From: Streptomyces halobius
GTDB taxonomy: Bacteria > Actinomycetota > Actinomycetes > Streptomycetales > Streptomycetaceae
DNA: 64,000 nt
NCBI RefSeq assembly: GCF_023277745.1
Contig: NZ_CP086322.1
Location: forward strand, 2,666,001 to 2,730,000
Direction of reading: 5' to 3'
In this document: one piece after another, positions 8,342-36,356 of the stretch
Layout: each line of letters starts with the position of its first letter
Position numbering within the stretch: the first letter of the stretch is position 1
Position numbers and translations under genes: made by a program
The notes under the pieces: model-generated
What the model saw: the letters and a program-made list of their open reading frames with translations, nothing else
Databases searched by the model: none
What the model was told of the DNA's origin: nothing

Positions 8342-11300
8342 ATGGTGGAGGAGCGTGTTGTGGCGCAAGGAAGAGCGCGTGCGGCGATTCAGGCCGGTCG
8401 TCCTCCGCTGCGGTCGCCGGGACGTCCCCCGGTCAACCGGCGTGCGGAGAAGCAGCGGTTCTGGCGGAAGATCGCTGAGGGGCTGTCCAGTGAGGACGCG
8501 GCGGTCGCGTGTGGCGTGTCGCAGCCGTTGGGGCCGAGGTGGTTTCGTGAGGGTGGCGGCATGCCGCCGATCAGCCTCGATCCACCGTCGGGACGTTACC
8601 TGTCATGCTCCGAGCGCGAGGAGATCGCACTGCTACGGGCGAAGGAGTGCGGGGTCAGGGAGATCGCTCGCCGGACCGGCCGTTCGCCGTCGACGATCTC
8701 GCGGGAGCTACGGCGTAATGCGGCGACGCGCGGCGGTCGTCTGGACTACCGGGCCTCGGTCGCGCAGTGGCATGCCGACCGGCAGGCCCGCCGGCCCAAG
8801 ACGTCCAAGCTCGCCAACAACGCGCGGCTCCAGCAGTACGTACAGGACCGGCTTGCCGGCGCGGTCAGCGCGGCGGACGGCAGCGAGATCCCAGGTCCGC
8901 AGACGCGCTGGATCGGGCGACGGCACGGCCGTCGGCAGGACCGGCGCTGGGCGACCTCCTGGAGCCCGGAGCAGATCGCCCGCAGACTACCGGCCGACTT
9001 CCCCCATGATGAGTCGATGCGCATCCCACACGAGGCGATCTACCAGGCCCTCTACATCCAGGGACGTGGTGGTCTGCGCCGCGAGTTGGTGGCCTGTCTG
9101 CGCACCGGCCGGGCCCTGCGTGTTCCCCGGGCCCGCGCCCGCGGCCGTGGCAAGAAGTTCGTCACCGAGGAGGTCAAGATCAGTCAGCGGCCTGCCGAGG
9201 CTGAGGACCGGGCGGTGCCCGGACACTGGGAAGGCGACCGTGCGACACGATGCCGCACGAATTTGAGTGGACTGACCGATTGGAGAGGCGGTTGATGAAA
9301 CCGTAGGTGCAGTCACGGGTCCGTGTCTGTATGACCCGTCCCCGCCCTTGACGTGCGATGCCGGCAACGGCCTGGTGCGAAGCTCAGGGGAAAGCCCAAG
9401 GACTTCCGTTCCATCCGGGAGTTACCGGCAAGGGGAAGACCGGACGGGTGAAGCAAATGAACTCCCGATGATGCCTCGTGATCCCAAGCCCCGCCGATGG
9501 AATGCGTGAGTGGGGTGCATGGCTAGCCGTTGAGAAGCGGCAGGCGCTGGCCGGTAGAGGTCACTCCGGCCAGGTGGACACCGCCGCCTCGGGGTAAAGG
9601 GAGCACCCACCCCGGTCGTATCTCATTCGTGTGGAACGTGGAAACCCCGTTGCGGTCCGGGCCTCTTTGGCTCGGTCAGCCGACCGCGAGGAAGGCTCAA
9701 CTCCCCAGCGGGAACAGGACGGCCCAACAAGCCAACGCCGGAAGCCGAAAGGAAACGGGAAAGCGGTGCATCATGACCGGCCTCTCCGCCGGACGCCTCG
9801 CATAACCGTCCGGATACGGGCGCACTGCCCGGACCCGAAAGGGTGCTGACGTGGGCCGGGTGAGCCTGTGCAGAATCACTGGATAAAGACGACGGAACCG
9901 AGGGGCAAGTTGGACACCATGCAGATAGTGGACGGATCGGCCCCGGCCCTTCCGGCTGCCTCTGTGCCGGTGAACGGACCCGAGGGCGAAGACTTGGACT
10001 GGGCGTCGATTGACTGGCGGCGGGTCGAGGAAGACGTACGGCGTCTGCGGCAGAGGATCTTCACGGCATCGCAGGCAGGGGACTTGAAGAAAGTCCGCAA
10101 TTTGCAGAAGCTGATGCTCCGGTCTCGCTCGAACACACTCCTGAGTGTGCGACGGGTAACGGAGATCAACGCTGGACGCGCGACGGCGGGAGTCGACGGA
10201 AAGGTCGTGTTGATGTCCCAGTCCAAGGCCGCATTGGCCCACTGGGTCCAGCACCGCGCCCGACCGTGGATTCCCAAACCCGTCAAAAGGGTGTTCATCC
10301 CCAAACCGGGAACCATGAAGAAGCGCGGACTCGGGATTCCCGTGATTGTCGACCGGTGCCTGCAAGCTGTGGCACTGGGAGCATTGGAGCCCGAGTGGGA
10401 AGCGCGGTTCGAGCCGAAGTCGTATGGCTTTCGGCCCGGCCGCGGCTGTCACGACGCGATCGGGGCCATCTACTCCACGCTCAACGGGAAGAACCCGCAG
10501 CGGGCGTGGGTACTCGACGCGGACCTGACGGCGGCGTTCGATCGCATCGACCACGCCCGGCTCATGGCCGCACTCGGCACCTTCCCCGCCCGGGGATTGG
10601 TCCGGCAGTGGCTGAAGGCCGGGATCGTGGATCGCGGTCGGTTCGCCCCGACCGAGGAGGGAACTCCGCAGGGTGGGGTGATCAGCCCATTGCTCTTCAA
10701 CGTGGCCCTGCATGGAATGGAGGAAGCCGCAGGGGTCCGCTACTACACCACCGGCAGAGATGCCGGGAGTGCACAAAGCGGCAGCCCTGTGCTGGTGCGG
10801 TACGCAGATGATTTTGTCGCGATGTGCACAAGCCGTGAACAGGCTGAACAGGTCAAAGAGCGGCTGGCTGCCTGGCTGACGCCCAGGGGACTCGCCTTCC
10901 ACGAGGACAAGACACGAATCGTCCATGCGGAGAGCGGGTTCGACTTCCTGGGATTCAACGTCCGCCGCTATCACGGCAAACTGCTAATCAAACCGAGCAA
11001 AGCGGCTCAGCGACGGATCCGGGAACGGCTCAGCACCGAAATGTTGGCCCTGCGAGGGGCAAACGCCGGTGCAATACTCAAGAAGATCAACCCGATCGTG
11101 CGGGGTTGGTCGGCCTACTACCGGACGGTGGTGTCCAGCGAGATCTTCACGGCGCTGGACAATCACATGTGGAAGCTCGCTTACAAGTGGGCCAAACACA
11201 GCCACCCGAACAAGCCGAAGCACTGGATATCCGACAAGTACTTCGGCCGGTTCAACAGGACCAGGAAGGACCGATGGGTGTTCGGCGACCGCGACAGCGG

Positions 11301-23656: not shown

Positions 23657-24334
23657 TCAGTTCCCGGACGCCTTCTCGGGGCGCAGCTCGCTGGGCCGTA
23701 CGATCACGAAGCCCTCACCGTCCAGGCGGAGTTGGACGGCCTCTCCGGAACCGCCGCGGATCATCGAGCCGACGCTCTGCGAGCGGTGCAGGGAGGTCTG
23801 CAGGGAGCTGCTCCAGCCGACCACCGCGTCGGTGTCGACGAACACCGGCGCCTGCGGCGAGACGGGGATGACGATGGGGTTGCCCTCACACATCACCCCC
23901 AGCTTGCCCTGGCCGCTGAAGACGGAGTTGAACAGCCCGCCGCCGGCCATGCCGGCGCCCTTGACGACCGTGATCTCGTAGGAGAGCGACGGGTCGAAGC
24001 ACAGCACATTGCGGCCGTTGACGGTGATGCCGTCGCCTTGGGCGAGGTCGATGATGAAGCAGTTGGCGGCTTCGTGGGCGAACCACACCTCGCCCCGGCC
24101 CCGTACGGCCATCAGCGCCAGCCCCTCACCCGTGACGGCGCGCTTGAGAAACCTGCCGACTCCTTGTCCCTGCTTCTCGAACTGCAGGTCTCCACGGAAG
24201 GCGATCATCGAGCCCTGACGGGCGTAACACTCACCGTCCAGGGCGTACTTGAGCGACTTCGCGTTCTGCTGCGTCATGCCGGGCGCGGTCGCCGACCTGG
24301 CCATGTTCTCCGCGGCGAAGAGGTCACTGTTCAT
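23657..24334 (-). CDS. AIM24-family protein
   Basis: This 225-aa protein has the repeated beta-sandwich of AIM24/TerD-neighbour proteins: LDGECYARQGSMIAFRG, GEGLALMAVRGRGEVWFAH, IDLAQGDGITVNGRNVLCFDPSL, VKGAGMAGGGLFNSVFSGQGKLGVMCEGNPIV split over the family core. No signal peptide. Streptomyces usually carry several paralogues in a row; here there is only one. Role unknown. Start ATG 24334 is backed by strong codon bias; the open frame upstream is antisense to the PTH2 gene. Confidence 0.88.
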   Translation of the reverse strand: MNSDLFAAENMARSATAPGMTQQNAKSLKYALDGECYARQGSMIAFRGDLQFEKQGQGVGRFLKRAVTGEGLALMAVRGRGEVWFAHEAANCFIIDLAQGDGITVNGRNVLCFDPSLSYEITVVKGAGMAGGGLFNSVFSGQGKLGVMCEGNPIVIPVSPQAPVFVDTDAVVGWSSSLQTSLHRSQSVGSMIRGGSGEAVQLRLDGEGFVIVRPSELRPEKASGN

Positions 24335-24491
24335 GGCCAGGATGCTAGGGCGGGACGGAGAACGGCCCGCCGTAATCGCCGCGTCCGGCGACAGGCTGGG
24401 GTGAGGCCGGGGGGCGGCGCCCGTCGAAGACCGTTTGACGAAGAAGTCTGACGAAGAAGGTCTGAAACGGAGAAGGTCTGAAGGAGAACGG

Positions 24492-25298
24492 TTGTCAGTG
24501 GTGGCTGGCAGACTTGGTCGCGTGATCAGCACCGAGAGCACCTGCCCCGGCAGTCCCAGTGACCCCAGCGGGACGGGCGGCAGCAGCAGCCCGTTCCACC
24601 ACGAGGAGACCGGCCGGGACGCCGCCCCGCAGTTCGTGCTGCCGCTCGTCGCGCGGATCGAGAAGGCGTCGCCGCCGGCGCGTACGGACGCTCTGGAGAC
24701 GGCGGCGCGGGCGGTGCTCGTGCTGCTGTCGGACGAGCGGGCGGTGGGTGACGGCGAGTGGGCCGAGGCGGTCCGGGACTGGCAGGACGCCCGGATCCGG
24801 AAGGTGGTGCGGCGGGCGCGCGGCGCGGAGTGGCGGCGGGCGGAGGCGCTCCCCGGGATCACGGTCCATGGCGAGAGCGCGGAGGTACGGGTCTTCCCGC
24901 CGGTGCCGCTGGACGGATGGCCGAAGGAGCTGGCGCGGCTGCAGGTGTCGGGGACGGAACTGGCCGATCCGCAGCGGCCCGCCGCGCCCGGATCGCAGGA
25001 GGCCGTGCTGTGGCTCAACCCCGATCTGGAGATGTCGGCCGGCAAGGAGATGGCGCAGGCCGGGCACGGAGCGCAGCTCCTGTGGTGGGAGCTGGGCGCG
25101 GCGGAGCGGGCGGCCTGGCGAGCGGCGGGGTTCCCCCTGGCGGTGCGGTCCGCGGAGCCGGGGGCATGGGAGGCGCTGACGCGCAGTGGGCTGCCCGTGG
25201 TGCGGGATGCCGGATTCACGGAGATCGCGCCCGGGGTAACTCTTGCAGTGGAAGGGATCGACCGTATCCGTTCTCTTTCGCGCCTGCAGCGGCCGTAG
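24492..25298 (+). CDS. PTH2-like peptidyl-tRNA hydrolase
   Basis: This ~268-aa protein has a C-terminal PTH2 domain (VLWLNPDLEMSAGKEMAQ, then AGHGAQLLW, the helix that follows the PTH2 start strand). The N-terminal ~130 residues (LPLVARIEKASPPARTDAL...) are typical of the actinobacterial long form. PTH2 enzymes cleave peptidyl-tRNA to recycle tRNA. The start is TTG 24492, with AAGGAG 5 bp before it; GTG 24522 is possible. Its last codons (EIAPGVTLAVEG...) are copied six times downstream, so the 3' end seems to be a recombination site. Confidence 0.8.
   Translation: MSVVAGRLGRVISTESTCPGSPSDPSGTGGSSSPFHHEETGRDAAPQFVLPLVARIEKASPPARTDALETAARAVLVLLSDERAVGDGEWAEAVRDWQDARIRKVVRRARGAEWRRAEALPGITVHGESAEVRVFPPVPLDGWPKELARLQVSGTELADPQRPAAPGSQEAVLWLNPDLEMSAGKEMAQAGHGAQLLWWELGAAERAAWRAAGFPLAVRSAEPGAWEALTRSGLPVVRDAGFTEIAPGVTLAVEGIDRIRSLSRLQRP
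25221..25256 (+). repeat. PTH2-tail repeat R1 (in the gene)
   Basis: The reference copy, GAGATCGCGCCCGGGG followed by TAACTCTTGCAGTGGAAGGG, encodes EIAPGVTLAVEG, 14 codons before the stop. Six degenerate copies lie downstream in the same orientation. Confidence 0.8.
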
Positions 25299-25353
25299 GC
25301 GGGCTGCTCTGCGTCCGGACGCGGGAGCGGTGGGGCGTGTGTGTTCCCGGCAC

Positions 25354-25570
25354 TCAGCGGTTGCTGCGTGCCCACTGCGCGGCCCGGACCGTTCCTTCCT
25401 GGATGTCCTGCTGGGGCAGTTGAAGGCCGAGTGCGTAGATGGCCTTCGCGGCGCATGCGCTCAGCTCCACCGTCTCTGTGACTCCGAGCCGCATGAAAGC
25501 GCCCTGGCGGCGCTGTGCGTCAAGAAGCTCGCGGAGAGATCTCGGGTTCAGGGCGCGTACCTGTCCGAGG
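25354..25570 (-). pseudogene. Gene remnant in block 1
   Basis: A minus-strand frame with good codon bias encodes about 72 residues (LNPRSLRELLDAQRRQGAF, then ETVELSACAAKAIYALGLQ, ending QWARSNR) and stops at 25354. Upstream it is closed by a TGA and no start remains. Family not recognised. It converges on repeat R1. Confidence 0.45.
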
Positions 25571-25654
25571 CACCAGCGTCACCCCCCTGGGGTCCTCAAC
25601 AGCCAGAAAGACAGGGAATAATGCAGGTGAGACCACAAATCCAAGGGCTCGAAC

Positions 25655-25689
25655 GAGATCCCCCCGGGAACACTCTGGTAGTCGAAGGG
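25655..25689 (+). repeat. PTH2-tail repeat R2
   Basis: GAGATCCCCCCGGGAACACT followed by CTGGTAGTCGAAGGG; the frame reads PPGNTLVVEG then stop. One base shorter than R1 before the CCCGGG core. The next ~25 bp also resemble R3 (TTCTGCCCTCTCCCGC). Confidence 0.8.
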
Positions 25690-25824
25690 AGGTGATCGTT
25701 TCTGCCCTCTCCCGCACGTACGACGGCCGTCTGGCAGGTAAACGGGACTGCGGGGTTCGACCGCAGTGAGCTGACGGCTTTGTTTGACCTGCGTCAAGTA
25801 CCGCGGAGGACACGTCGCTGCGAC

Positions 25825-25858
25825 GGTTGACCCTGACGCAGGGGCAACCTCTCAGCAT
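25825..25858 (+). promoter_or_regulatory. MerR-type promoter/operator
   Basis: The 11-bp arms GGTTGACCCTG and CAGGGGCAACC (one mismatch, 3-bp centre) overlap a TTGACC -35 element; a weak CAGCAT -10 element lies 20 bp downstream. Overlong spacers holding a dyad are the hallmark of MerR-controlled promoters. A second short dyad (TTGAC / GTCAA) is at 25785-25798. A MerR-type gene is the second gene of the transcript. Confidence 0.6.
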
Positions 25859-25976
25859 GGTGGGCATGACCACGAGAAACAGTACGAGCGAGGTCTCTGG
25901 AAAGCGCACGCCGTACAGCGCCCATGCAGTGGCCGACCGAGTCGAACAAGGAACCCACCATCGGACAGTTGCCGGC

Positions 25977-26840
25977 ATGCCGACAGACGGCGGGGAACAG
26001 AGCGAGAGTGGCGACGGGACTGTGCGGCACTTCACGGTCCACCACGACGGCGTCACGATCCCGGTGTCCCGCGGTGGCCGGGAACGGCCACTGGTCCTGT
26101 GCCCTGGACTGAACTCGACGGAGGCCGACCTGCACGAACTGGCCGGGCTTCTCCGGCGTGACCACGACGTGGTGACCTTCGACCTCAGGGGACATGGCCT
26201 CGCCTCGGCCGCCGACCGGTACTCCTTCGGAGCATTTCTGAGCGATCTTGTCGTCGTGCTGGCAGAGCTCGACCTGCCTTCGGCGCCCGTTCTCGTGGGC
26301 TACTCGCTGGGGGCGGACCTGGCCGTGCACTACGCCTCCGAGCATCCTGACGACGTCGCCGAGCTGGTCCTCATCGATGGGGCGAACCCGCTGCCCGCGC
26401 CGTTCATCACCGATGCTGACCTGGCGGAATTCCGCGAAATGGCGGACGACCTGGCGACGGAGGCTGAGCGGTCCAAGGGCACCGCACGTCAGGTGTTGCT
26501 CACCGCACAGGACATCCACGACCTGAACCTCGAAATGGATGTGGTTCGGTCCGCAATCCTCGACCGGTACCGGAAGATCGACCACCCGATCAGCATGATC
26601 ATGTCGGCCTCGGTCGCCGGTGACAGCACCGAAGGGCGCGCGCCACGGCACAACCACCTCTGGCGTGCCGGCATAGAGCAGCTCGTCCGCGAGCGGCCGC
26701 ACACCTCCACGTCGTGGCTCGACGCCGATCACCGGCTGGTCTTCACCCATGCCCCGGAAATCACGCAGATTATCCGGAGCGCCCAAGGACCAGCCAGGCC
26801 GAATTCTCGGCCCGACCTTGGAAGACTGGTCCGATGCTGA
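25977..26840 (+). CDS. Alpha/beta hydrolase
   Basis: This 287-aa hydrolase has PLVLCPGLN (oxyanion loop), FDLRGHG, a nucleophile elbow GYSLGA (Ser near residue 106), and a late DADHRLVF containing the probable catalytic His. It is in the esterase/epoxide-hydrolase-like superfamily; substrate unknown. Start ATG 25977 is favoured because the preceding ~110 bp show poor codon bias, though ATG 25866 would fit a leaderless transcript. It overlaps the MerR gene by 7 bp and shares its promoter. Confidence 0.8.
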   Translation: MPTDGGEQSESGDGTVRHFTVHHDGVTIPVSRGGRERPLVLCPGLNSTEADLHELAGLLRRDHDVVTFDLRGHGLASAADRYSFGAFLSDLVVVLAELDLPSAPVLVGYSLGADLAVHYASEHPDDVAELVLIDGANPLPAPFITDADLAEFREMADDLATEAERSKGTARQVLLTAQDIHDLNLEMDVVRSAILDRYRKIDHPISMIMSASVAGDSTEGRAPRHNHLWRAGIEQLVRERPHTSTSWLDADHRLVFTHAPEITQIIRSAQGPARPNSRPDLGRLVRC

Positions 26841-27667
26841 GCATCGGCGAGCTGGCGTCGTACGCCGGCGTGACGGTGCGTGCGGTGAGGCACTATCACG
26901 CCAAGAGCCTTCTGCCGGAGCCGGAGCGGGACCGCTCCGGATATCGCAGGTACGACGCCGCCGCTGTGGTCCAGCTGATCAAGATCCGGACCCTCGCCGA
27001 GGCCGGGGTCCCGCTGGCGCGCGTGCGGGAGCTGCTCCAAGCCGACGGGAAAGAGTTCGCCGCGGCGGTCGCAGACATCGACAAGCGGCTGCGAGCGGAA
27101 ATCCGTGAGCTACAGCGGCACCGCGGGCGGATCGCCCGCCTTGCCGCGGGGGACAACCTGGCACTGCCTGAGGAGGTGGTCGAGTTCCTCGACCGGCTGC
27201 GGGCGCTCGGGGTCGACGAGCGGATCGTGCAGGCTGAACGCGACGGCTGGATCCCGCTTGCCGCGCACGCACCCGAGCGAGTCCCGGAGTGGATAGCACG
27301 CAAGCGGGAGCAGATCGCCGACCCGCAGCCCATCGACTTCTACCTCACCCTGAGCCAGGCTCTCGACCGGACCGACGACGACCCACAGCTGAGCGAGCTG
27401 GCCGACAAGCTGGCCGCCTACCTCACGCAGATGGCCGGCGAGCGGGGCGAGGACTACATCGATGATGCCGACATCGAGCCACCGCTGGCCAAACTCATGG
27501 ACACCCTGGCGTTCGACACCGTACCGCCGGCCCGTCGACTGATCGAGCTGCTGAAGAAGCGAGGCTGGACCGGCTGGACCAAGGTCGAGCGCGTGAGCGC
27601 CACACGGAGTGAGAGCGGAACGCAGCAGGAAGACACTGCGGAGCTGCGTTCCCGGCGTAAGCGGTGA
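26834..27667 (+). CDS. MerR-family regulator
   Basis: This 277-aa protein has an N-terminal MerR winged helix (LSIGELASYAGVTVRAVRHYH, then RDRSGYRRYDAAAVVQLIKI) and a dimerisation coiled coil (RLRAEIRELQRHRGRIARL). The long C-terminal part (FLDRLRALGVDERIVQAERDGW...) resembles the effector domain of actinobacterial MerR proteins that sense small organic ligands. It is coupled to the hydrolase gene and probably controls their common promoter at 25825-25858. Confidence 0.87.
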   Translation: MLSIGELASYAGVTVRAVRHYHAKSLLPEPERDRSGYRRYDAAAVVQLIKIRTLAEAGVPLARVRELLQADGKEFAAAVADIDKRLRAEIRELQRHRGRIARLAAGDNLALPEEVVEFLDRLRALGVDERIVQAERDGWIPLAAHAPERVPEWIARKREQIADPQPIDFYLTLSQALDRTDDDPQLSELADKLAAYLTQMAGERGEDYIDDADIEPPLAKLMDTLAFDTVPPARRLIELLKKRGWTGWTKVERVSATRSESGTQQEDTAELRSRRKR

Positions 27668-27746
27668 CGGCGCTCGGCCATAGAGAGTCCCCAGGATCGC
27701 CGGCCCGCACCGGGGTAGAACGCCGTCTCCATGCCCCGACCGTACC

Positions 27747-27782
27747 GAGATCGCCCCCGGGAAAACTCTTGTCGTCGAAGGG
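27747..27782 (+). repeat. PTH2-tail repeat R3
   Basis: GAGATCGCCCCCGGGAAAAC followed by TCTTGTCGTCGAAGGG; the frame reads EIAPGKTLVVEG and stays open for the same number of codons as PTH2, ending GCGTAGGCGGGCT like PTH2's GCCGTAGGCGGGCT. This is the best copy and extends about 85 bp. Confidence 0.85.
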
Positions 27783-27863
27783 GGCAGTCGGTTCTGCCCT
27801 CTCCCGCGCGAACGACCGGCGTAGGCGGGCTAGACCCTGCCAACGTGCGTCGCCCTGGGGCGG

Positions 27864-28838
27864 CTACTTGCCGGAGAAGAAGGCGTTCAGCAGCAACTCG
27901 ACGACGATCAAGCCGACACCAGCGATGCCACCGGCTGCCGCGTTCTGATAAAGGATCGCCGCGACCACCACAGCGGCGGCAATCGCGGCTGGCTCAGGAA
28001 CCCCCTGCCGCGCTGCCACGATGACAATCGCCGCGACCAGGACAGCTGTGAGAGACAGACACAACGCATCGCCCATCCGACGCGGTCGTTTGAGGTCAGG
28101 CTCGTCCAAGAGCGCTCCGAGCCGCCCCGAGGCGTACCGCTCGCTGATCGTCAGCGCCATGCGCGCAAGGTCGCGCGCCGCCTTCCGCGGATCCTTGTCC
28201 AGTTCGGCCTCAGCGGCCCGCAACGCCCCCACGACCTGGGCCGCGCGGCCCTTCAGCGGGCCGTTACGCCGCGAGAACAAGGGGACAGTCCCCCGGGTCA
28301 TCCGGGCACCCCGCACGCGCATCACTGGAAGCCGAAGGGACAGATTCCGGAGGTGAACATCACGGCTTCCGGAAGAGCGCACGATGTCCGCACACTGCCC
28401 AATCAAGCGAGTCCGGACGTTCACGCGTTCGAAGGTGTAGCCCCCTGCACCACACATCCGGGCAACAGAAGCCAGAAGCGACCACAGAGGGTATGTCAGC
28501 AGCAGCAAGGCGATAGCGCCTGCGCCTACGTCGCCGATGAACCAAACGACCAGAGCTTTCGCATCGCTGTAGTACGGAAACTGCTCGGCACGTTCGTCTG
28601 TTTGCTTCACATAGATCGACAGCACATTGCCGCTCACGCGGAGGCAAACGAAGGCGAACACAGCCCACAGCACCCACGTCCGTACTCGACGCTGGTGGTA
28701 GTGCCGTAAAGCCACCCGAGCCGGGCCCGGTACAGGACCGATCCCGAGCACTTCGGCGTCCTCACGCAGCTTCCGTATCGCCTCATCCGCCTGCCGCCTG
28801 TGGCGTGCAGCCAGAGGAGCCCCCCTCCATCTCATCAC
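27864..28838 (-). CDS. Hypothetical membrane protein, block 3
   Basis: This 324-aa protein has a basic N-terminus, two transmembrane helices near residues 53-75 and 98-125 (GAGAIALLLLTYPLWSLLA), a ~130-residue cytoplasmic part with helical repeats (AQVVGALRAAEAELDKDPRKAARDLARMALTI split across two helices), and two C-terminal helices (AVLVAAIVIVAARQG; GVGLIVVELLLNAF). No family recognised. It is the only gene between repeats R3 and R4 and converges on R3. GC is somewhat lower and rare codons more frequent than in the backbone. Confidence 0.65.
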   Translation of the reverse strand: MMRWRGAPLAARHRRQADEAIRKLREDAEVLGIGPVPGPARVALRHYHQRRVRTWVLWAVFAFVCLRVSGNVLSIYVKQTDERAEQFPYYSDAKALVVWFIGDVGAGAIALLLLTYPLWSLLASVARMCGAGGYTFERVNVRTRLIGQCADIVRSSGSRDVHLRNLSLRLPVMRVRGARMTRGTVPLFSRRNGPLKGRAAQVVGALRAAEAELDKDPRKAARDLARMALTISERYASGRLGALLDEPDLKRPRRMGDALCLSLTAVLVAAIVIVAARQGVPEPAAIAAAVVVAAILYQNAAAGGIAGVGLIVVELLLNAFFSGK

Positions 28839-28936
28839 CAGCCGATCATCGCATCCGGCGACCAGTAGCTTCGGTCGTCCTCAACTCCCTGCGGATGAGC
28901 GCCACCTGGGAACAATGCAACATCCTGCCCCCGAAC

Positions 28937-28971
28937 GAGATCGCCCCCCGGATAACTCGTGCAGTCGAGGG
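28937..28971 (+). repeat. PTH2-tail repeat R4
   Basis: GAGATCGCCCCCCGGATAAC then TCGTGCAGTCGAGGG; the frame reads EIAPRITRAVEG. The 22 bp before it (AATGCAA...GCCCCCGAAC) match those before R7 with four differences, though not the PTH2 gene itself. Confidence 0.8.
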
Positions 28972-29120
28972 ATACGAACGCGTCGGCGCCTCGCCGGACC
29001 CGCGCGCGCCGGCCGATCACCTGGCGCTGAGGGGCGTGGAAACTCTTCGCGGAGCTGAGGAACACCCGGCGGGTGGCTCTCCTGCAGGGAAGTGACCGGG
29101 CCCGGTCGGCGGAGGACTTG

Positions 29121-30314
29121 TCAGGCCGGCTGGGCGGAGGAGCTCATCGCCGGGGTGGGAGCGGGGGCCGGGGTCTCGGGAGCGTGGGGGTAGGCGGCTG
29201 TCCGGTTCTGGAAGGAGAGGATCTTCGGGTTCAGGACGACGCCGTCGCGGATCTCGATGGCGTTGCTGACCGTGGCGTCGGTCTCCCATACCGCCGGGCC
29301 GCTCATGACCTTGCGCAGGTAGGGCAGGAGCGCCTGGCTGATTTCCCACGTGGCCGAGTTCCACAGATGGGACGGGCTGTGGTCCACCGCGTAGTAGTGG
29401 CAGCCCGGCCCGACCGTGGGCATCGGGTCGCCGAAGGAGGTCGGTCGGGACCATTCGAAGCCCATGCCCTCGTCGCAGGCGACGTCGATGAAGAAGGTTC
29501 CCGGCCGGAACAAGGCGAGTTCCCGGTCGGAGACGAACACGAGCGGCGCGTCGGTGTCCTGCCGGATGCAGTTGACGATGATGTCGAACCCGGCCAAGTA
29601 CTCCGCGAACGGCACGGGACCGGCCGCGCTGAGCGTCTGCAGGCGCGACGGATCTCCTTCCTCCTCCTGGAAGTGGCCCATCACGACCGACGGCATCGGC
29701 GATGCCACCGCCGCTGCGGCGCGTTGAGTGAGCACCGTGACGTCTGAGACCCCCATGGCACCCAGGCCCGTGACCGCTCCGCGCGCCGTGGCGCCGAAGC
29801 TGATGACCACTGCCCGCAGGCGACGCCCATAGCTGCCGGTCAGCCCGCCGAGTTGCAGGGCGTGCAGCACCGAACAGTAACCGGCGAGCTCGTTGTTCTT
29901 GTGGAACACATGGACGCTGAAGGCGCCCGTGGAGGTCCAGTGGTTCATGGCCTCCCAGGCGATCAGCGTCAGCCGTCGGTCGATGCCGATCTGGGTCATC
30001 TTCTCGTCCTGCACACAGTGCGGCCATCCCCAAAGCACTTGACCTTCGCGCAGCGCCGCGGCGTCTTCGTGTCTGGGTTTGGGCAGCAGCAACACATCGC
30101 ACTCGGCGAGGAGTTGCTCGCGGGAGCGCAGGCCGGCCACGAGGGGGCGCAGTGCGTCGTCGGCGACGCCGAACCGTTCACCGTACCCCTGTTCGAGGAA
30201 GATCCTCTCGCGTACGTCGGGGGCGATCCGGCCGAGGTGACCGGGGTACAACGGCAGCCGGAACTCGTTCTCCTTGCGGGAGGAGGCGAGTACTCCGAGG
30301 CTCATCAGGCTCAT
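29121..30314 (-). CDS. N5-(carboxyethyl)ornithine synthase-like dehydrogenase
   Basis: This 397-aa NAD(P)-dependent enzyme is of the alanine dehydrogenase/transhydrogenase fold. Features in order: LASSRKENEFRLPLYP, GYGERFG, VLWGWPHCVQ, LIAWEAMNHW, FHKNNELAGYCSVLHALQ, the Rossmann loop ISFGATARGAV, FDIIVNCIRQDTD, FIDVACDEGMGFEWSRPT and YYAVDHSPS. These best match N5-(carboxyethyl)ornithine synthase, which reductively condenses pyruvate with ornithine or lysine; the substrate here is inferred. Several ATGs lie at 30305-30329; 30314 is preferred. A Cys-rich small gene lies 56 bp upstream. Confidence 0.75.
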   Translation of the reverse strand: MSLMSLGVLASSRKENEFRLPLYPGHLGRIAPDVRERIFLEQGYGERFGVADDALRPLVAGLRSREQLLAECDVLLLPKPRHEDAAALREGQVLWGWPHCVQDEKMTQIGIDRRLTLIAWEAMNHWTSTGAFSVHVFHKNNELAGYCSVLHALQLGGLTGSYGRRLRAVVISFGATARGAVTGLGAMGVSDVTVLTQRAAAAVASPMPSVVMGHFQEEEGDPSRLQTLSAAGPVPFAEYLAGFDIIVNCIRQDTDAPLVFVSDRELALFRPGTFFIDVACDEGMGFEWSRPTSFGDPMPTVGPGCHYYAVDHSPSHLWNSATWEISQALLPYLRKVMSGPAVWETDATVSNAIEIRDGVVLNPKILSFQNRTAAYPHAPETPAPAPTPAMSSSAQPA

Positions 30315-30370
30315 GCGCTTCCTCATCATTTCGTTCTTGTCGTGCCGGTTGTGGCTGCCGGGTTTCCGGG

Positions 30371-30643
30371 TCAGGAGTGGTCGGCCTGGTGCCTGCGTAC
30401 GCGCTCGGCCAGAGGGAGGGGCGTCTCGTCCAGACCGTTGACCGACCCGCTCGCCATGCGTGCGCACGTTCCGTGGCAGGCGAGCAGTCGCCTGTCGTCG
30501 CGGTGGGAAACCACCACCGCCTCCGGGGCCGGCGCGCTCCGGTAGTCGGTGCCGCAGATGAGGCACGCCAAGCCGGAGAGCATCTCGGCGGTCGGTTCGG
30601 TGCGGCCGCGGCGGCGGCCGGAGATCGATTCCTGTGAATACAT
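30371..30643 (-). CDS. Small Cys-rich protein
   Basis: This 90-aa protein has CLIC followed by CHGTC, four cysteines and a His that may bind one zinc ion (GLACLICGTDY ... RLLACHGTCARM). The rest is polar, with no signal peptide. Similar small proteins occur beside many Streptomyces operons with no known role. It precedes the carboxyethylornithine-synthase-like gene and is probably co-transcribed with it. Confidence 0.6.
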   Translation of the reverse strand: MYSQESISGRRRGRTEPTAEMLSGLACLICGTDYRSAPAPEAVVVSHRDDRRLLACHGTCARMASGSVNGLDETPLPLAERVRRHQADHS

Positions 30644-31150
30644 GCGTCCTGCATCCTCTTGATCGGTTCAGGGCGTGCATGAGGCGCCGGAATACCTCTC
30701 GGACGCCCCGGGAACAAGGAAATCCACTACCGCGGGGCGCGGAACGGGATACCGAAGACAACGCGTCAGGACGAGCCAGGGGGCATGGTGCGGCTCTTTT
30801 CCGGCCGGACGCGATGTGCTCCGGCCTTGCCGTTCCCCGAGGGCGACGCCGACACGGATGACGGCATGCGAGGTGCGCTCGGTGCCGCAACCGTACTCCC
30901 CTCCGGACCTGCAGACGACCCGTGAGGGTGTCGCCGGACCCTTCCCCGACCGACCGGGAACGTTCTCGGTGCTCCGGACGTTGTAGCGAGTGGTTGTAGT
31001 TGAAGTTTGCGACGTGTAAGCGCCCGCGGAGTTCTGACAGCGGGTGCTTCGCCGTTTTCGGGGGTTTTCTTCGACTGCTGGCGACCAGCAGCCCGGGATC
31101 GCGCGAGTGCGCGTTCTCCGACCTCCTCGCCATCTCGAAGGAGACGTCAC
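30644..31150. other. Long intergenic region upstream of a cold-shock gene
   Basis: 507 bp without a supported gene, between divergent transcripts. It must hold the promoter of the Cys-rich/dehydrogenase pair and a leader for the cold-shock gene; the end carries a GAAGGAG site at 31137-31143. Cold-shock genes often have long leaders that refold in the cold, but no conserved cold box was recognised. Confidence 0.5.
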
Positions 31151-31355
31151 ATGGCTCAAGGAAACCGTGAGGTGGTTCAACCCGGACAAGGGCTTCGGCT
31201 TCATCGCCCCCGATGAGGGCGGCGCCGGCATCTTCGTCCACCACTCGGCGATCGACATGGGTGGTTTCCGCTCTTTGGAGGAGAACCAGCGAGTGGAGTT
31301 CACCGCCAGCCAGGGCCCCAAGGGTATGCAGGCCGACCAGGTCAGCGCGCTCTGA
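31151..31355 (+). pseudogene. Cold-shock (CSD) gene with a +1 shift at its start
   Basis: From codon 6 on, the gene encodes a standard cold-shock domain: RNP1 KGFGFI, RNP2 IFVHHSAI, ending QADQVSAL, about 67 residues. The ribosome site and ATG at 31151 would begin MAQG as in normal Csp proteins, but GAAACC at 31161-31166 has one A too many. The ATG frame therefore ends in a stop at 31216. Translation could start only from a downstream GTG (near 31166), missing the first strand. Either a real frameshift or a sequence error. Confidence 0.72.
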
Positions 31356-31477
31356 AGACACCCCATTCCGAGGCAGGCCCGCGCCACGGTCCTGCCTCGC
31401 GCTGCTTCCGAACGGGTGCCGCTTCCGGCGCCCCCTTCGCGCCGGAGGCAGCGCCCGTGCACGCCGAAAGGAACACT

Positions 31478-32569
31478 GTGGCCACTGACATCAGCTACCG
31501 GGGCACCGGTCCGGCGGACCACGCCGAGATGACCAAACCCCCGCCCGCCGGCCGGGGCAGCGACTACGCCGCGCTGTCCCGCGAGGTGAAGCAGAGCGGG
31601 CTGTTGAAGCGGCGGCCGGGCTACTACTCCGTCAAGGTGGGGACGAACCTGCTCCTGCTGGCCGCCGGCTGGACCGCGTTCGCCCTGATCGGGCAGTCAT
31701 GGTGGCAGCTGCTGACGGCCGCCTTCCTCGCGGTGATGTTCACCCAGACCGGGTTCATCGGGCACGACGCCGGACACCACCAGATCGCCGCCTCCAAGCG
31801 CGTCAACAACCTGATCGGCCACGTGCACGCCGACCTGCTGATCGGCCTCAGCTACAGCTGGTGGATCTCCAAGCACAACCGTCACCACTCCCACCCCAAC
31901 CACGTCGACCGCGACCCCGACATCGCCGACGGCGCTATCGCCTTCACCCAGGACCACGCTCGCGTCCGCCGCGGACCGTATGCCTGGCTGGCCCGCCACC
32001 AGGCCTGGCTGTTCTTCCCGATGCTGCTCCTGGAAGGACTCGCCCTGCACGTCGCCGGCGTACGGGCGCTGCTCGACCGCACCGGCACCGCAACCTCGCG
32101 GAGGACCAAGTTGGCCGAGGCGGGACTGCTGACGGCGCATCTCGGCGGCTATCTCGCCGCCCTGTTCCTGGTCCTGTCCCCCGTCCAGGCCGTGTGCTTC
32201 CTCCTTGTGCACCAGGGGCTGTTCGGGCTCTACATGGGGTGCTCGTTCGCCCCCAACCACAAGGGCATGCCCATCTTCGCCAAGGACGACAAGATCGACT
32301 TCCTGCGTCGGCAGGTACTGACGTCACGCAACATCCGTGGCCATAGGTTCACCGACTTCGCGCTCGGCGGGCTGAACTACCAGATCGAACACCACCTGTT
32401 CCCCTCTATGCCGCGGCCCAGCCTGCGCCATGCCCAGGAACTCGTCCGCACGTTCTGCGTCCGGCGCGGCATCGCCTACCACGAGACCGGACTCTTCAAC
32501 TCCTACGCCCAGGTCCTGCGGCACCTCCACGCGGTCGGCGGCCCCCTGCGCCCCGAACTGGAATACTGA
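31478..32569 (+). CDS. Membrane fatty-acid desaturase
   Basis: This 363-aa di-iron membrane enzyme has the three His boxes HDAGHH, HNRHHSHPN and QIEHHLFP, with helices between (NLLLLAAGWTAFALIG; LFLVLSPVQAVCFLLV). It would use O2 and electrons from a ferredoxin-type donor to desaturate acyl chains. The GTG at 31478 follows GAAAGGA. It lies 122 bp after the cold-shock gene in the same direction; a cold-shock protein and a desaturase are a sensible membrane-cold-response pair, but co-regulation is inference. Confidence 0.9.
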   Translation: MATDISYRGTGPADHAEMTKPPPAGRGSDYAALSREVKQSGLLKRRPGYYSVKVGTNLLLLAAGWTAFALIGQSWWQLLTAAFLAVMFTQTGFIGHDAGHHQIAASKRVNNLIGHVHADLLIGLSYSWWISKHNRHHSHPNHVDRDPDIADGAIAFTQDHARVRRGPYAWLARHQAWLFFPMLLLEGLALHVAGVRALLDRTGTATSRRTKLAEAGLLTAHLGGYLAALFLVLSPVQAVCFLLVHQGLFGLYMGCSFAPNHKGMPIFAKDDKIDFLRRQVLTSRNIRGHRFTDFALGGLNYQIEHHLFPSMPRPSLRHAQELVRTFCVRRGIAYHETGLFNSYAQVLRHLHAVGGPLRPELEY

Positions 32570-32605
32570 TCGCCAGTCCGCTGCCGTAGGCCACGATGTC
32601 TTGAC

Positions 32606-32630
32606 GAGATCACCCCCGGGAAAACTCTTG
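32606..32630 (+). repeat. PTH2-tail repeat R5
   Basis: GAGATCACCCCCGGGAAAAC then TCTTG; the frame reads EITPGKTL. On the other strand it provides the last codons (QEFSRG, stop) of a minus-strand gene. Confidence 0.82.
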
Positions 32631-32945
32631 GGGGTCGGCTCCGTGGAACTGAGCGATCTGTTCGACGCTGATGTCGTCGCCGCGGAAGAAGGCCAGGTTG
32701 GTGTAGGGGTCCTGCCCCTGCCATGCGCCAGCGATCCAGGCAAGACGTTCCAGCGGATCGTGCCCGCACGGTTGTGCCGTCTGCGTACCGTCCATACCGC
32801 CGCTGCGGAATCGTCTGCCCCATGCGGGGTCGATCTGGTCCAGCATCTCGGCCTGCCCGGTGACGAGGTTGGTGACCGGGCCGTACCCAGGGGAGCGGGC
32901 TGCGATGTGCTCAGCGAGATTGTGGACACTGTGGTGGCCGCGCAC
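32610..32945 (-). CDS. Small hypothetical protein, block 5
   Basis: This ~111-aa protein from GTG 32945 has a well-biased codon use (HSVHNLAEHIAARSPGYG; AEMLDQIDPAWGRRF; LERLAWIAGAWQGQDPY; DDISVEQIAQFHGADPQEF). The open frame begins right at repeat R6, where it also reads EFSRGD, and ends at a TGA inside repeat R5 that reads EFSRG. The gene thus fills the block exactly from repeat to repeat. No family recognised; the SVEQIAQFHGA segment recalls the end of a helix-turn-helix domain. Confidence 0.5.
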   Translation of the reverse strand: MRGHHSVHNLAEHIAARSPGYGPVTNLVTGQAEMLDQIDPAWGRRFRSGGMDGTQTAQPCGHDPLERLAWIAGAWQGQDPYTNLAFFRGDDISVEQIAQFHGADPQEFSRG

Positions 32946-32981
32946 GGTGCCGTCCTCGTCCAGGAAGGCTCCCAGACGGGA

Positions 32982-33005
32982 GGGATCGCCCCGGGAAAAC
33001 TCTTA
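32982..33005 (+). repeat. PTH2-tail repeat R6
   Basis: GGGATCGCCCCGGGAAAACT then CTTA; the frame reads GIAPGKLL. Two bases shorter than R5 in the C/G core. Confidence 0.78.
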
Positions 33006-33011
33006 CGGTCG

Positions 33012-33233
33012 ATGTCGTGCGGAACTCACCGGATGCCCTCCTGGACAACCCCGCGCCGTCTCGCCGCCGCCGTGGTCCTCTGCGCGGTGTTCGCGTCCGG
33101 CTGGTTCCTCGGCCAGCCCGTGTACGTCCCCGAATGCACCATAGGCCCCCACCGCTACAGCGATCACCTGGAGGCGGAAAACTGCGACACCCGACCGCGT
33201 CTGCTCGCGTGGTTGAACGGCGACTGGAGCTGA
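33012..33233 (+). CDS. Small exported or membrane-anchored protein
   Basis: This 73-aa protein (or 66 aa from ATG 33033) has one N-terminal hydrophobic helix (AAAVVLCAVFASGWFLG) and a short exported tail with two cysteines (VPECTIG ... ENCDTRP) that could form a disulfide. It begins 7 bp after repeat R6. No family recognised. Confidence 0.5.
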   Translation: MSCGTHRMPSWTTPRRLAAAVVLCAVFASGWFLGQPVYVPECTIGPHRYSDHLEAENCDTRPRLLAWLNGDWS

Positions 33234-33249
33234 CCGCGAACCGGCCCGC

Positions 33250-33538
33250 TCAATGCCCCTCGTTGAGCGGGCCGGTACCGTTCGTGTGCCAGAGTTCGCC
33301 GGTGAGGGCGAGGACGGTGAGGGTGAAGAGGACAACCGTTGCGAGGAGGATGAGCGCGGCCAGCGCATACACCTTCCCCTCCCCATCTTTCCGCTGCGGC
33401 CGCTGTGCCGCCTCGATGCTGGCCTGAGGAGCAGCCCGCAGCGACGGTAGCCAGCACCCAGCCGTCGTTCTCCAGGTCCCAGTACTCCAGGAGACTGCCG
33501 CACCGTATGCAGTTGACCGTGTATCGCTGCTGCACCAT
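33250..33538 (-). pseudogene. Small zinc-ribbon plus membrane-helix protein, frameshifted
   Basis: From ATG 33538 the first part encodes VQQRYTVNCIRCGSLLEYW, a CxxC half zinc ribbon. About 40 codons on, the coding frame moves by one base and continues ASIEAAQRPQRKDGEGKVYALA, then a transmembrane helix (LILLATVVLFTLTVLALTG), ending GPLNEGH at 33250. The second part has no start of its own. The ATG overlaps the TGA of the upstream gene (TGATG), so they form an operon. It converges on repeat R6. Confidence 0.55.
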
Positions 33539-33807
33539 CACCCCGTCAGCAGGGCGAAGGCGGCGAGGACCAGGACGAGGCCGGCGGCGACGATGGCGAC
33601 GGACGCCCAGGAACGGCGGTATCCGGAGTCGGTGAACCGCGCAGGCCGCACACCTGGGTCCGGGTCCGCGCGGAACGGCTGCGGTCCGGGCGGGTTGTCC
33701 TTCCACCGTGCGGCGAGCATACGGGCACGCGCCGATGGCTCCTTCGGCCCTTGCTCCGCCCACTTGATATCGAACTCGTCGGGTATGTCGCCCTGTCGCT
33801 CTGTCAT
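33538..33807 (-). CDS. Small single-span membrane protein
   Basis: This 89-aa protein has a charged N-terminal 65 residues (PDEFDIKWAEQGPKEPSAR; ARWKDNPPGPQPFRADPDP) and a C-terminal transmembrane helix (ASVAIVAAGLVLVLAAFALL). It overlaps the next minus-strand gene at TGATG and is divergent from the LmeA-like gene, 84 bp apart. Function unknown. Confidence 0.6.
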   Translation of the reverse strand: MTERQGDIPDEFDIKWAEQGPKEPSARARMLAARWKDNPPGPQPFRADPDPGVRPARFTDSGYRRSWASVAIVAAGLVLVLAAFALLTG

Positions 33808-33891
33808 AACGAGCACTGTAGCGACGCCGCCGGAGCACGAGTGGTGAGATGGGGCGGTACAGACCAATCCTTCGGGAAGGAGCACCCCGCC

Positions 33892-34533
33892 ATGCGCATG
33901 CGTATGCCCCTCATCCTCCTCGGCTCCCTCGTCGTCCTGGCCGTCGGCGCCGATCTCGCCGCCGAGCAGATAGCCGAGAACATAGCCGCCAACAAGTTCG
34001 GTGAGAGACTGCCGGGGCAACAGGGCAGCGCCGAGGTGGACATCAAGGGCTTCCCCTTCCTCACCCAGGCCGCGACCGGGACGTTCGACGAGATCAGCGT
34101 CACCGTGAAGGACACGGCTGCCCCGGCCGGCTCCTCCACGGTGACCCTGCCCAGAGCCACGCTCACCGCGCGCGGAGTGAAAGTGGAGGGCACCTCATCC
34201 GCCGTGGCCGATCTGGTCGAGGGGCAGGCAACCGTCCCCTACAGCGCACTCGCAACCGCCCTCGAACAGCAAAACCCCTCGGGCGGACCGGTGGAGATAG
34301 CTCCTGTCACCGGCGGTGCCGCCCGCGTACGGATCACCCAGGGCGGACGGGACCTCATCGCCCGACTCTCGGGCCAGGGCGAGGACATCGCGTTCACCCC
34401 GGAGGTCGAGGGTGCGCCGCCGCAGGCCGTCGCCGTGGCTACCGGGCCCCTGCGGGCGGACATCACCGGCGCCACTCCGGATGAGGGCGGAGTTCGGCTC
34501 CACTTCGCCGGGCGGCTGGTCAGCCTCGGTTAG
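33892..34533 (+). CDS. LmeA-like DUF2993 phospholipid-binding protein
   Basis: This 213-aa envelope protein has an N-terminal hydrophobic signal/anchor (PLILLGSLVVLAVGADLAAE) followed by the DUF2993 pattern (AEQIAENIAANKFGERLPG; DIKGFPFLTQAATGTFDEI; LPRATLTARGVKVEG; GPVEIAPV). LmeA of mycobacteria binds phospholipids and supports lipomannan elongation; this assignment is by family only. A GAAGGAG site precedes ATG 33892. Confidence 0.82.
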   Translation: MRMRMPLILLGSLVVLAVGADLAAEQIAENIAANKFGERLPGQQGSAEVDIKGFPFLTQAATGTFDEISVTVKDTAAPAGSSTVTLPRATLTARGVKVEGTSSAVADLVEGQATVPYSALATALEQQNPSGGPVEIAPVTGGAARVRITQGGRDLIARLSGQGEDIAFTPEVEGAPPQAVAVATGPLRADITGATPDEGGVRLHFAGRLVSLG

Positions 34534-34710
34534 GCACCTCGCGGGACTCACGGCGCGCGTGAGGACCGCCTTCGAAACTTGCACCCGGGCCCCCGGACTT
34601 GCCAACCCGGGGGCCGCGCGCTGCCAGAAGACCGCCCTTGACCGGGCACCTCTTATCCGGACAGGGGATACCTGCAGGTGAGAGCAGAATGCAAGGTCCC
34701 GCCCCCGAAC

Positions 34711-34740
34711 GAGATCGCACCGGGTTCGTGCACGTTGTCG
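34711..34740 (+). repeat. PTH2-tail repeat R7
   Basis: GAGATCGCACCGGGTTCGTG then CACGTTGTCG; the frame reads EIAPG then diverges. It shares the upstream AATGCAA...GCCCCCGAAC stretch with R4. It is the last copy before the backbone resumes. Confidence 0.75.
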
Positions 34741-34800
34741 CCGATCATCCCGCATTGCGGGGCCGCCGGCGCCGACACGGGCGAGAGCGTTCCCGCCTCC

Positions 34801-34928
34801 GGGCACAGCGGGCAGGGCCACGAGCTGTCGGCGGGCGCGGTCGCAGGGGTCACGAGCTCTCACCGGGCACGGCGGGCAGGGCCACGAGCCGCCACCGGGC
34901 ACGGCGGCCGGGGTCACGAGCCGCCACG
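34801..34928 (+). repeat. Imperfect ~32-bp tandem repeat
   Basis: Units GGGCACGGCGGGCAGGGCCA then CGAGCCGCCACC start at 34801, 34865 and 34897, with a shorter one between. The surrounding 34,534-35,044 contains no supported gene. Confidence 0.7.
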
Positions 34929-35044
34929 CCCCGCCCCCACCGCACCACCGGAAGCTCAAATCAACCTCTGAACCCCGCGCGCGAAGGGTTCGGCTCGCCG
35001 TAACGGGCCATGAGTACCGACACCACGGAGCGAGAGGGGGAAGC

Positions 35045-35887
35045 ATGGAGCGCCTTGGCACGGGAATCGGCTGGCGGCCGGAGATCGCCGCCGAGATCGC
35101 GGGGCTGCCCGGTGTGGACTGGGTGGAGGTCGTGGCCGAGAACATCTGCCCCGGCCATCTGCCGCCCGCCCTGCGGGAGCTGCGCGAGCGCGGCACGACC
35201 GTCGTCCCGCACGGTGTCTCGCTCGGCCTCGGCGGCGCGGACCGTCCGGCCCCCGGGCGGCTGACCGCCCTCGCCGAACGCGCCGTGGCACTGGGCGCGC
35301 CGCTGGTCACCGAACACATCGCGTTCGTCCGCGCCGGCGGGCCGCTCACCGCCTCACCGGTGGTGGAGGCCGGGCATCTGCTGCCCGTGCCGCGCACCCG
35401 CGACGCCCTGGACGTGCTGTGCGAGAACGTACGGATCGCCCAGGACGCGCTGCCCGTACCGCTGGCCCTGGAGAACATCGCGGCGCTGATCAACTGGCCG
35501 GGCGAGGAGCTGACCGAGGGGCGGTTCCTCCGCGAACTCGTCGAGCGGACCGGCGTACGGCTGCTCATCGATGTCGCCAACCTCCATACGAACCACGTCA
35601 ACCGGGGCGAGGACCCGGCCGTCGCACTCGACGAGCTGCCGGTCGAGGCCATCGCGTACGTCCATGTCGCGGGCGGGGTGGAGCGGGACGGGGTGTGGCA
35701 CGACAGCCATGCGCACCCGGTGACCCAGCCGGTGCTGGACGTGCTGGCCGAGCTCTGCGCCCGGATCACGCCCCCCGGTGTGCTGCTGGAACGGGATGAG
35801 GACTTCCCCGAGGGCGGCGAGCTGGCCGGGGAGCTTGATGCGATCCGCGCCGTGCTGAAGGAGGCCCGTCGTGCCGAGGCGGCTTGA
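35045..35887 (+). CDS. MNIO (DUF692) multinuclear iron enzyme
   Basis: This 280-aa TIM-barrel protein has the DUF692 signatures: [56 protein letters not shown] and DSHAHPV, supplying the His/Asp/Glu/Asn iron ligands. MNIO enzymes oxidatively modify cysteine or other residues in ribosomally made peptides (MbnB, TglH). The next gene overlaps it by 17 bp and a TIGR04222 remnant follows; TIGR04222 proteins commonly accompany actinobacterial DUF692. Substrate in this lineage is unknown. Confidence 0.85.
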
Positions 35888-36356
35888 GCCGGTGACGGAC
35901 CGGTCCCAGGGCGGGACGGCAGCGCCGCCCGGGTCCACCGAGGCGGCGCGGCAGCGGCTGGCGCTCGCCCAGACCGCGCTGCTGTCCGCGCTCGTCGCCG
36001 GGACGCCCGCCCCGGAGGGTTTCGACCGCGCCCGCTTGCGGGTGCAGAGCCGGGCGCTGACCGCCAAGCGGGCCTCCGTCGTCGCCAAGGTGGCCCCCGA
36101 GCTGCCGGAGATCCTCAGCGAGGACTTCCGGATGGCGTTCCTCGGCTACGCCCGGCACCGGCCCATGAGCGGCGGCTACCGGCAGGACGCCCTGGACTTC
36201 GCGGCATATCTGCTGGCGCAGGGCCGCCCCGACGACCCTGCGGCACGGCGGCGGTTGGCCCAGTGGTGGCATGATCGCGCCGGACCCGAACCGCCGTCCA
36301 CGGGCCCCGCGTCCCGTCTCACCCACGCCATCCGGCGCGCGCTGCACCGAAGGTGA
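35871..36356 (+). CDS. MNIO partner protein
   Basis: This 161-aa helical protein ([89 protein letters not shown]) is translationally coupled to the DUF692 gene. Its size and helical segments fit the substrate-recognition partners (DUF2063-like) that accompany MNIO enzymes, though homology cannot be shown by eye. The GTG start at 35871 lies within the end of the previous gene. Confidence 0.65.

Follow-up and report, generated by a model that had tools for sequence, protein, structure and literature searches.

Cis-mobilizable elements (CIMEs) and microCIMEs accrete at the 3′ ends of rpmG, rpsI, fda and rplL in Streptococcus; they measure 1.2–13 kb and 130–220 bp, respectively, and carry no integrase or mobilization genes (PMC7563491). 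The TR1/TR2 islands of scab-causing Streptomyces combine a CIME with an integrative and conjugative element (ICE) and contain an internal attachment (att) site (PMC8369830). Composite islands of the staphylococcal cassette chromosome (SCC) are located at orfX/rlmH, with SCC elements defined by their ccr recombinase genes (PMC7029136), and the phage Samy, which encodes a serine integrase, targets a radical-SAM gene (PMC12924846). Here we analyze a 64,000-nt window of Streptomyces halobius (C1:2666001–2730000 of G000, a single-contig genome of 9.24 Mb), in which a PTH2-like gene is followed by six blocks of 0.4–3.7 kb between seven att-type junctions (R1–R7). We consider it quite likely that the 3′ end of PTH2 is an attachment site used by inserting phages and islands, and that the array in the window arose by tandem accretion.

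The array resembles the streptococcal CIMEs in that tandem att-flanked blocks lie at the 3′ end of a protein-coding gene (PMC7563491). It differs from them in its Streptomyces PTH2 site, in the lack of an ICE or integrative and mobilizable element (IME) partner within the array and in the alteration of the encoded C-terminus by the element; moreover, the PTH2 site is also used by a tailed phage and by an island with polyketide synthase (PKS) genes. As in CIMEs, the flanks have a common core (R1–R7 and the empty site). No recombinase relative was found in the array. The larger block open reading frames (ORFs) with an assigned family are metabolic, regulatory or LmeA-like; the small ORFs were scanned in part, and no search was aimed at relaxase or coupling proteins. 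The right ends are shared with inserts in two other genomes (G217 and G030), but a parental ICE did not come to light, and a phage parent is possible. Accretion with an internal att site in Streptomyces is common to TR1/TR2 and the window, but TR1/TR2 use other sites (aviX1; att TTCATGAA for PAISt) and comprise a resident ICE and large modules (PMC8369830). In SCC as in the window, serial variable direct repeats at a housekeeping gene partition composite islands, whereas target, core and host are different and no ccr-type recombinase was found (PMC7029136). Samy and the PTH2 phage both integrate into a conserved protein-coding gene; "peptidyl" has 0 occurrences in the text of this paper, which deals with Streptomyces phage attB sites (PMC12924846). 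In the open-licence full text of PubMed Central (PMC) we found no paper linking PTH2 or peptidyl-tRNA hydrolase to integration or genomic islands in Streptomyces. The reading that fits the six integrase-less blocks best is CIME/SCC-like accretion, here at a new site.

The features that define the site and the array are as follows.

24435..25298, + strand: PTH2-like gene, the insertion target, predicted 287-aa ORF (Pfam PTH2 PF01981, E 2.3e-5)
25221..25245, + strand: R1, attL-type junction, core GAGATCGCgCCCGGG plus element arm (empty-site match ends at 25227)
25236..25298, + strand: element-supplied (swapped) PTH2 C-terminal tail VTLAVEGIDRIRSLSRLQRP-stop (the native tail of kin differs)
25517..25654, + strand: right end of an element, with homology to that of the 93-kb insert of G217 (73.5% over 166 columns)
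25655..25678, + strand: R2, junction with a 1-nt deletion (repeat search, alignment)
27747..27771, + strand: R3, junction, best consensus copy (likeness to R1 extends beyond the stop)
28937..28961, + strand: R4, junction (repeat search, 25-bp consensus)
32606..32630, + strand: R5, junction (repeat search, 25-bp consensus)
32982..33005, + strand: R6, junction (gene G comparison, hand alignment)
34674..34710, + strand: right-end arm of an element, GCAGGTGAGA...CCCGAAC (also present at R2 and at the right ends of G217 and G030)
34711..34762, + strand: R7, attR-type junction plus displaced native PTH2 tail with a 1-nt deletion (empty-site match resumes at 34711)
35045..35887, + strand: DUF692/MNIO-family gene, right flank of the empty site (Pfam PF05114)

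A repeat search of the window found all seven sites on one strand only, as the first-pass annotation of this DNA had described. In ungapped comparison with a 25-bp consensus, R3 (27747) has 0 mismatches, R5 (32606) 1, and R1 (25221) and R4 (28937) 3 each, and alignment showed a 1-nt deletion in both R2 (25655) and R6 (32982). Dinucleotide-shuffled versions of the window (n = 60) contained on average 0.017 sites at ≤6 mismatches to this consensus. A degenerate 23-bp pattern matched the whole 9.24-Mb genome six times at ≤3 mismatches, four times in the array locus (0, 0, 0, and 2 mismatches) and twice elsewhere (3 mismatches each). The motif is therefore not randomly spread at similar density, a distribution that the annotation had raised as a counter-test. 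Its reading of the copies as EIAPG(K)TL is approximately right for R1, R3 and R5, whereas R2, R4 and R6 are altered, and the GTAGGCGGGCT said to follow the stop in both R1 and R3 is a real part of the repeat family. R7 (34711) was mistaken for one more copy of this tail: the right half of R7 is the native PTH2 tail, as seen in relatives, minus one base, with a local alignment score of 68 as compared to 31 on the reverse strand. As judged from these alignments, R7 is the displaced original tail of PTH2 and the gene now ends in an element-borne tail, both of which the annotation had missed. Between the displaced tail and the DUF692 gene, imperfect 32-bp tandem repeats are present (34799–34921).

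An empty site is provided by S. piniterrae, the nearest kin of the window PTH2 on the tree among the genomes compared. Its locus (L007) matched the window at 24225–25227, 34711–34762 and 34950–35931 (blast), and the first two matches have 7 bp in common (GAGATCG, L007 bases 10763–10769). As the matches stop at 25227 and restart at 34711, S. piniterrae is without the 9,490 bp between the two cores.

The 3′ end of PTH2, GAGATCGCNCCCGG, encoding E-I-A-P-G, would thus act as the bacterial attachment site. Phages and genomic islands would carry an attP with the same core and a substitute reading frame, and their integration would give PTH2 a new C-terminus. In the window, several elements may have piled up in tandem via core-to-core recombination; these would have lost their own integrase, or the integrase may have come from another element, leaving six CIME-like blocks, the small ones presumably deletion derivatives or passengers. 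The enzyme is assumed to be a phage-type serine or tyrosine integrase, from a putative phage or ICE source. Comparison between genomes demonstrates that DNA was inserted at a fixed core, that the native tail was displaced and the C-terminus replaced, that this happened repeatedly and that the site was used by both phage and island.

PTH2 relatives are present in 80 named Streptomyces loci, the best 80 of 403, which therefore lean towards relatives of the window. The distance between PTH2 and DUF692 differs among these kin, and PTH2 ends in one of two ways, in a native tail or in a swapped one, in which TEIAPG is followed by forms such as ETVVAEGGSRFCPLPRERRP. The window PTH2 has the swapped tail, as do 18 of the 80 named relatives. 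Scripted sorting of 87 PTH2 loci, excluding the window copy (L001), yielded 26 swapped and 61 native tails; one locus (L014) was reassigned by hand, giving 27 swapped and 60 native, with an unreadable frame in one native row (L077). To reconstruct tail history, a DNA tree was made from 104 distinct PTH2 bodies without their tails (60 native and 44 swapped rows), excluding L001, L077, L070 (no TEI motif) and identical bodies. Among the 78 named rows, 18 have a swapped tail; the remaining 26 rows (window and others) were chosen for their swapped tail, so that 44 of 104 should not be taken as a frequency. At least 19 switches between the tail types are required on this tree, and well supported (starred) branches force at least 12 of them. 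Shuffled tail labels need approximately 34 changes, so the tail label is clustered, yet has often changed; the counts do not separate gain from loss. The tail swap as a marker of a single lineage is ruled out by the tree.

Swapped tails go together with additional DNA downstream. The PTH2–DUF692 interval exceeds 1.2 kb in 13 of 18 swapped versus 10 of 60 native named loci (Fisher p 2e-5, uncorrected for relatedness; for seven swapped loci in which the DUF692 gene was not reached, the available length was used). In tails with ACT CTT, 7–11 of 20 codons end in A or T (9 in the window), and this number is as low as 1 of 20 in other swapped tails; the fraction is approximately 0.10 in native tails and 0.075 in PTH2 bodies. 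Such a gradient would fit foreign sequence that arrives and then adapts. For the selection of genomes, a 35-bp degenerate pattern was run on 392 genomes; it was too loose, with many off-target gene families, and served no other purpose. The 23-bp pattern matched 76 of the same genomes at ≤2 mismatches, many of them off target by sequence.

Displaced native tails were also observed in other genomes. In G051, a swapped tail is followed by 3.2 kb, a native tail that is frameshifted as read from the sequence, 5.8 kb, a core with swapped tail, 4.2 kb and a second native tail. G018 and G030 each have a single insert with the native tail at its end, and L084 has a decayed displaced native tail (score 53 versus 33 on the reverse strand). 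The inserts of L084, L125 and L131 share parts of their content, arranged differently relative to the cores (93.7% over 2254 bp between L125 and L131), and by eye only appear to contain DEAD-box helicase, CBS and MerR-like genes. A right flank consisting of GCAGGTGAGA, 18–23 bases and GANCGAGAYC is common to R2 and R7 of the window, G030 and G217. Searched with a spacing of 16–26 in 283 loci, this pattern otherwise matched the window's own sequence alone; in IMG/VR it gave eight matches, and the stretches examined there had no core (one mismatch), recombinase relative, PTH2 or DUF692.

The largest insert was found in G217, with the core in PTH2 at C1:1763512 and an intact displaced tail at about C1:1856712. 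The right end of this 93.2-kb interval is 73.5% identical to window 25517–25668, a comparison that includes R2. Both large insert proteins scanned are modular type I PKSs. The corresponding empty site is present in L032 and L044, where the two matches overlap by 18 bp. By these comparisons, the interval is an insert of 93.2 kb that contains type I PKS genes and is bounded by exact att sites. In G095, which has a swapped tail, approximately 39 kb precede DUF692, and type II PKS-like genes are among the five proteins scanned; a right junction was looked for and was not recognizable. Downstream of the swapped-tail PTH2 of this genome (L258, C6:2004300–2024200) we noted two ketosynthases, a cyclase, an FAD monooxygenase and a carboxyltransferase. 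Four other swapped-tail kin (L024, L025, L038, L041) have alike gene sets downstream of PTH2, in L024 with protein matches to prephenate dehydrogenase, a 4-hydroxyphenylpyruvate dioxygenase-like and an ABC-permease-like protein; this set is perhaps part of a biosynthetic cluster.

Use of the site by a phage is indicated by an uncultivated virus genome (UViG) in IMG/VR, where 37 pattern stretches yielded one confirmed PTH2 relative, UViG 2660238227. This contig begins with a PTH2 bearing GATTGCCCCCGGGCTAACTCTTGCAGTCGAGGG, the repeat sequence being present in its tail, followed 14 bp past the stop by a regulator-like ORF and then by phage-contig ORFs. Comparison of ten of its proteins with PHROGs identified six as terminase, major head, tape measure, tail, tail terminator and holin (weak); two are of replication or regulator type and two had no match. 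In IMG/VR, attP-like patterns and the native-tail pattern gave 0 matches each, PTH2 protein had no match in the annotated phage set, and the stretches examined of relatives of the phage in G295, G013 and G109 contained no PTH2. Of the related phages, L247 encodes a serine integrase and L248 and L249 encode tyrosine integrases, near the homologous regulator. The L247 enzyme was dropped as a candidate for PTH2, as no PTH2-type core lies beside it. It matches only itself in IMG/VR, and 3 of 295 genomes have a 34–35% relative at E 1e-60. An 8-mer (TCGACTGC) common to this candidate and the phage tail arm was considered too little to count.

The absence of a recombinase from the blocks, as noted in the first-pass annotation, is consistent with our similarity search and with the families of the larger ORFs, which detected none in the array. 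The ccr recombinases of SCC elements are of the serine class; the target here is PTH2-like and not rlmH, and there is neither a PF00239 match at the locus nor a recombinase relative in the six-block array. Comparison of 32 recombinases of the same genome with 14,383 ORFs (window, 80 named and 20 further loci, 16 of which contain PTH2) returned only pieces in the window, and the extended intervals in G217, G218, G051, G095 and G056 contained no recombinase relative. An intI-type tyrosine recombinase beside the first site, as in integrons, was found in neither the window nor the 80 named and 16 further PTH2 loci, within the sequence covered around PTH2, the sole recombinase relatives being remnants approximately 20 kb upstream of the window PTH2. 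Among seven swapped-tail genomes searched for PF00239 and PF00589, with weak contig assignment, the nearest PF00589 match to L084 (probably on C1) is approximately 103 kb away. The upstream remnants are a frame-broken tyrosine recombinase related to L151 (2480–4229, − strand) and the C-terminal part of a large serine recombinase (4779–5618, + strand; PF07508, no PF00239 match), and probably represent another decayed element.

The cargo of the blocks is listed below.

25367..25509, − strand: block A, remnants of the C-terminal part of gene G (matching the uninterrupted L218 frame at 89% and 83%)
25827..27667, + strand: block B, alpha/beta hydrolase and MerR regulator, starts uncertain (Pfam)
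27864..28838, − strand: block C, 324-aa ORF with no Pfam or NCBIfam family (G005 relative confined to the block)
29121..30317, − strand: block D, alanine dehydrogenase/PNT-like protein (Pfam PF01262, PF05222)
31044..31355, + strand: block D, cold-shock domain ORF, start uncertain (Pfam PF00313)
31457..32569, + strand: block D, fatty-acid desaturase (Pfam PF00487)
32631..32963, − strand: block E, N-terminal fragment of gene G, complementing block A (L218: 82% over 290 bp and 86% over 36 bp)
33892..34533, + strand: block F, LmeA-like phospholipid-binding protein (Pfam PF11209)

For blocks B, C, D and E, the best relatives among the matches listed from 61 genomes are in G055, G005, G040 and G024, respectively; block D is mostly covered by one 91% match in G040. 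No listed match crosses a repeat, the window itself apart, with few candidates scored per genome. The block B stretch is present on four Streptomyces plasmids (approximately 85%), and the flanks of the two copies read have no core. Neither the phage set nor the plasmid set contained a match to the 121-bp R3 region, and no phage structural family was found among the block ORFs scanned with Pfam and NCBIfam. At 31151–31167, the first ATG of the cold-shock ORF does not share the frame of the domain; the in-frame start would be GTG 31167 or lie further upstream.

Gene G is an uninterrupted frame in L218, and its halves lie in blocks A and E in the same order as in the uncut gene. Blocks B, C and D are therefore probably later arrivals between A and E, and insertion is not confined to the end of PTH2. 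In a hand alignment, R6 appears to combine gene G sequence in its left half with element sequence in its right half, which points to the use of a degenerate site; at least one insertion thus seems to have taken place at such a site inside a cargo gene.

Several observations weigh against PTH2 as an attachment site for integrating elements. The ten native loci with >1.2 kb before DUF692 (e.g., L034, L081) show that DNA enters this interval by other routes too. Swapped tails are found with <300 bp to DUF692 in L030, L035, and L058 (3 of the 18 named), and also in G165, G203 and G248. A displaced native tail was seen in only 7 of 44 swapped rows (window, G217, G051, G018, G030, L084 in decayed form and G218 as a candidate), with little downstream sequence at many loci. 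The candidate in G218 scores 34 versus a reverse-strand null of 40, and depends on a flank that is also present in G018 and L084. The inserts examined have no recombinase by similarity to 32–34 known ones, the 38.9-kb fragment of UViG 2660238227 has no PF00239 or PF00589 match, and the core was found at the ends of cargo relatives elsewhere in 0 of 14 places (the left flank of L212 is barely covered, and scattered weak motif matches lie further off).

Of the alternatives, an unlikely one holds that a diffusible recombinase, encoded elsewhere or supplied by a phage, repeatedly inserts integrase-less units, from 0.4 kb to the 93-kb PKS island, at the PTH2 tail, each with a replacement 3′ end that would keep PTH2 translated. 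Somewhat less probable still is a dedicated, integron-like system in which a recombinase encoded elsewhere captures and shuffles small integrase-less cassettes at PTH2. Six blocks without a detected recombinase, the different genomes in which the listed matches place the best relatives of blocks B–E, the 33 PF00589 and 13 PF00239 matches elsewhere in the genome and the degenerate site in gene G at which recombination apparently took place would all suit it. However, no recombinase gene could be linked to the site, the relatives of the cargo in other places differ from circulating integron-style cassettes in having no core at their ends, and the array did not grow at one end alone. The site also takes a tailed phage and a 93-kb island, for which no special system is needed. 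Of the two proposals in the first-pass annotation, site-specific integration at the 3′ end of a housekeeping gene has strong support from the empty sites, displaced tail, tail swaps, phage contig and PKS island, whereas a cassette-accretion system acting in trans is not demonstrated, as known processes, with phage or ICE integrases driving CIME/SCC-type accretion, account for the data.

It is very improbable that tails were replaced by homologous recombination or reflect old allelic variation, with the repeats arising through tandem duplication or gene conversion. The swapped-tail genomes without an insert, the scarcity of displaced native tails and the long coding stretch common to swapped tails are in line with it; exact empty sites with a short core overlap, the move of the native tail to the far end of the insert and the unrelated cargo between cores speak against it. 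A single larger prophage or ICE that decayed in place, its internal repeats being secondary duplications of its ends, is equally implausible: blocks A and E hold two pieces of a single gene, which means that some of the array was formerly continuous, but blocks B–E have their best relatives in different genomes with no match spanning a repeat (among the matches listed), and the internal junctions of G051 alternate swapped and native tails.

Integration of phages and islands at the PTH2 3′ end, followed by tandem accretion in the window, would make this a recurrent Streptomyces attachment site, apparently undescribed in the open-licence PMC literature, at which a tailed phage, a series of small blocks and a 93-kb insert carrying type I PKS genes have all entered. 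It offers a testable route by which biosynthetic clusters may enter chromosomes and possibly a new integration tool, and the substituted C-terminus would serve as a readable scar for counting earlier insertions throughout the genus.

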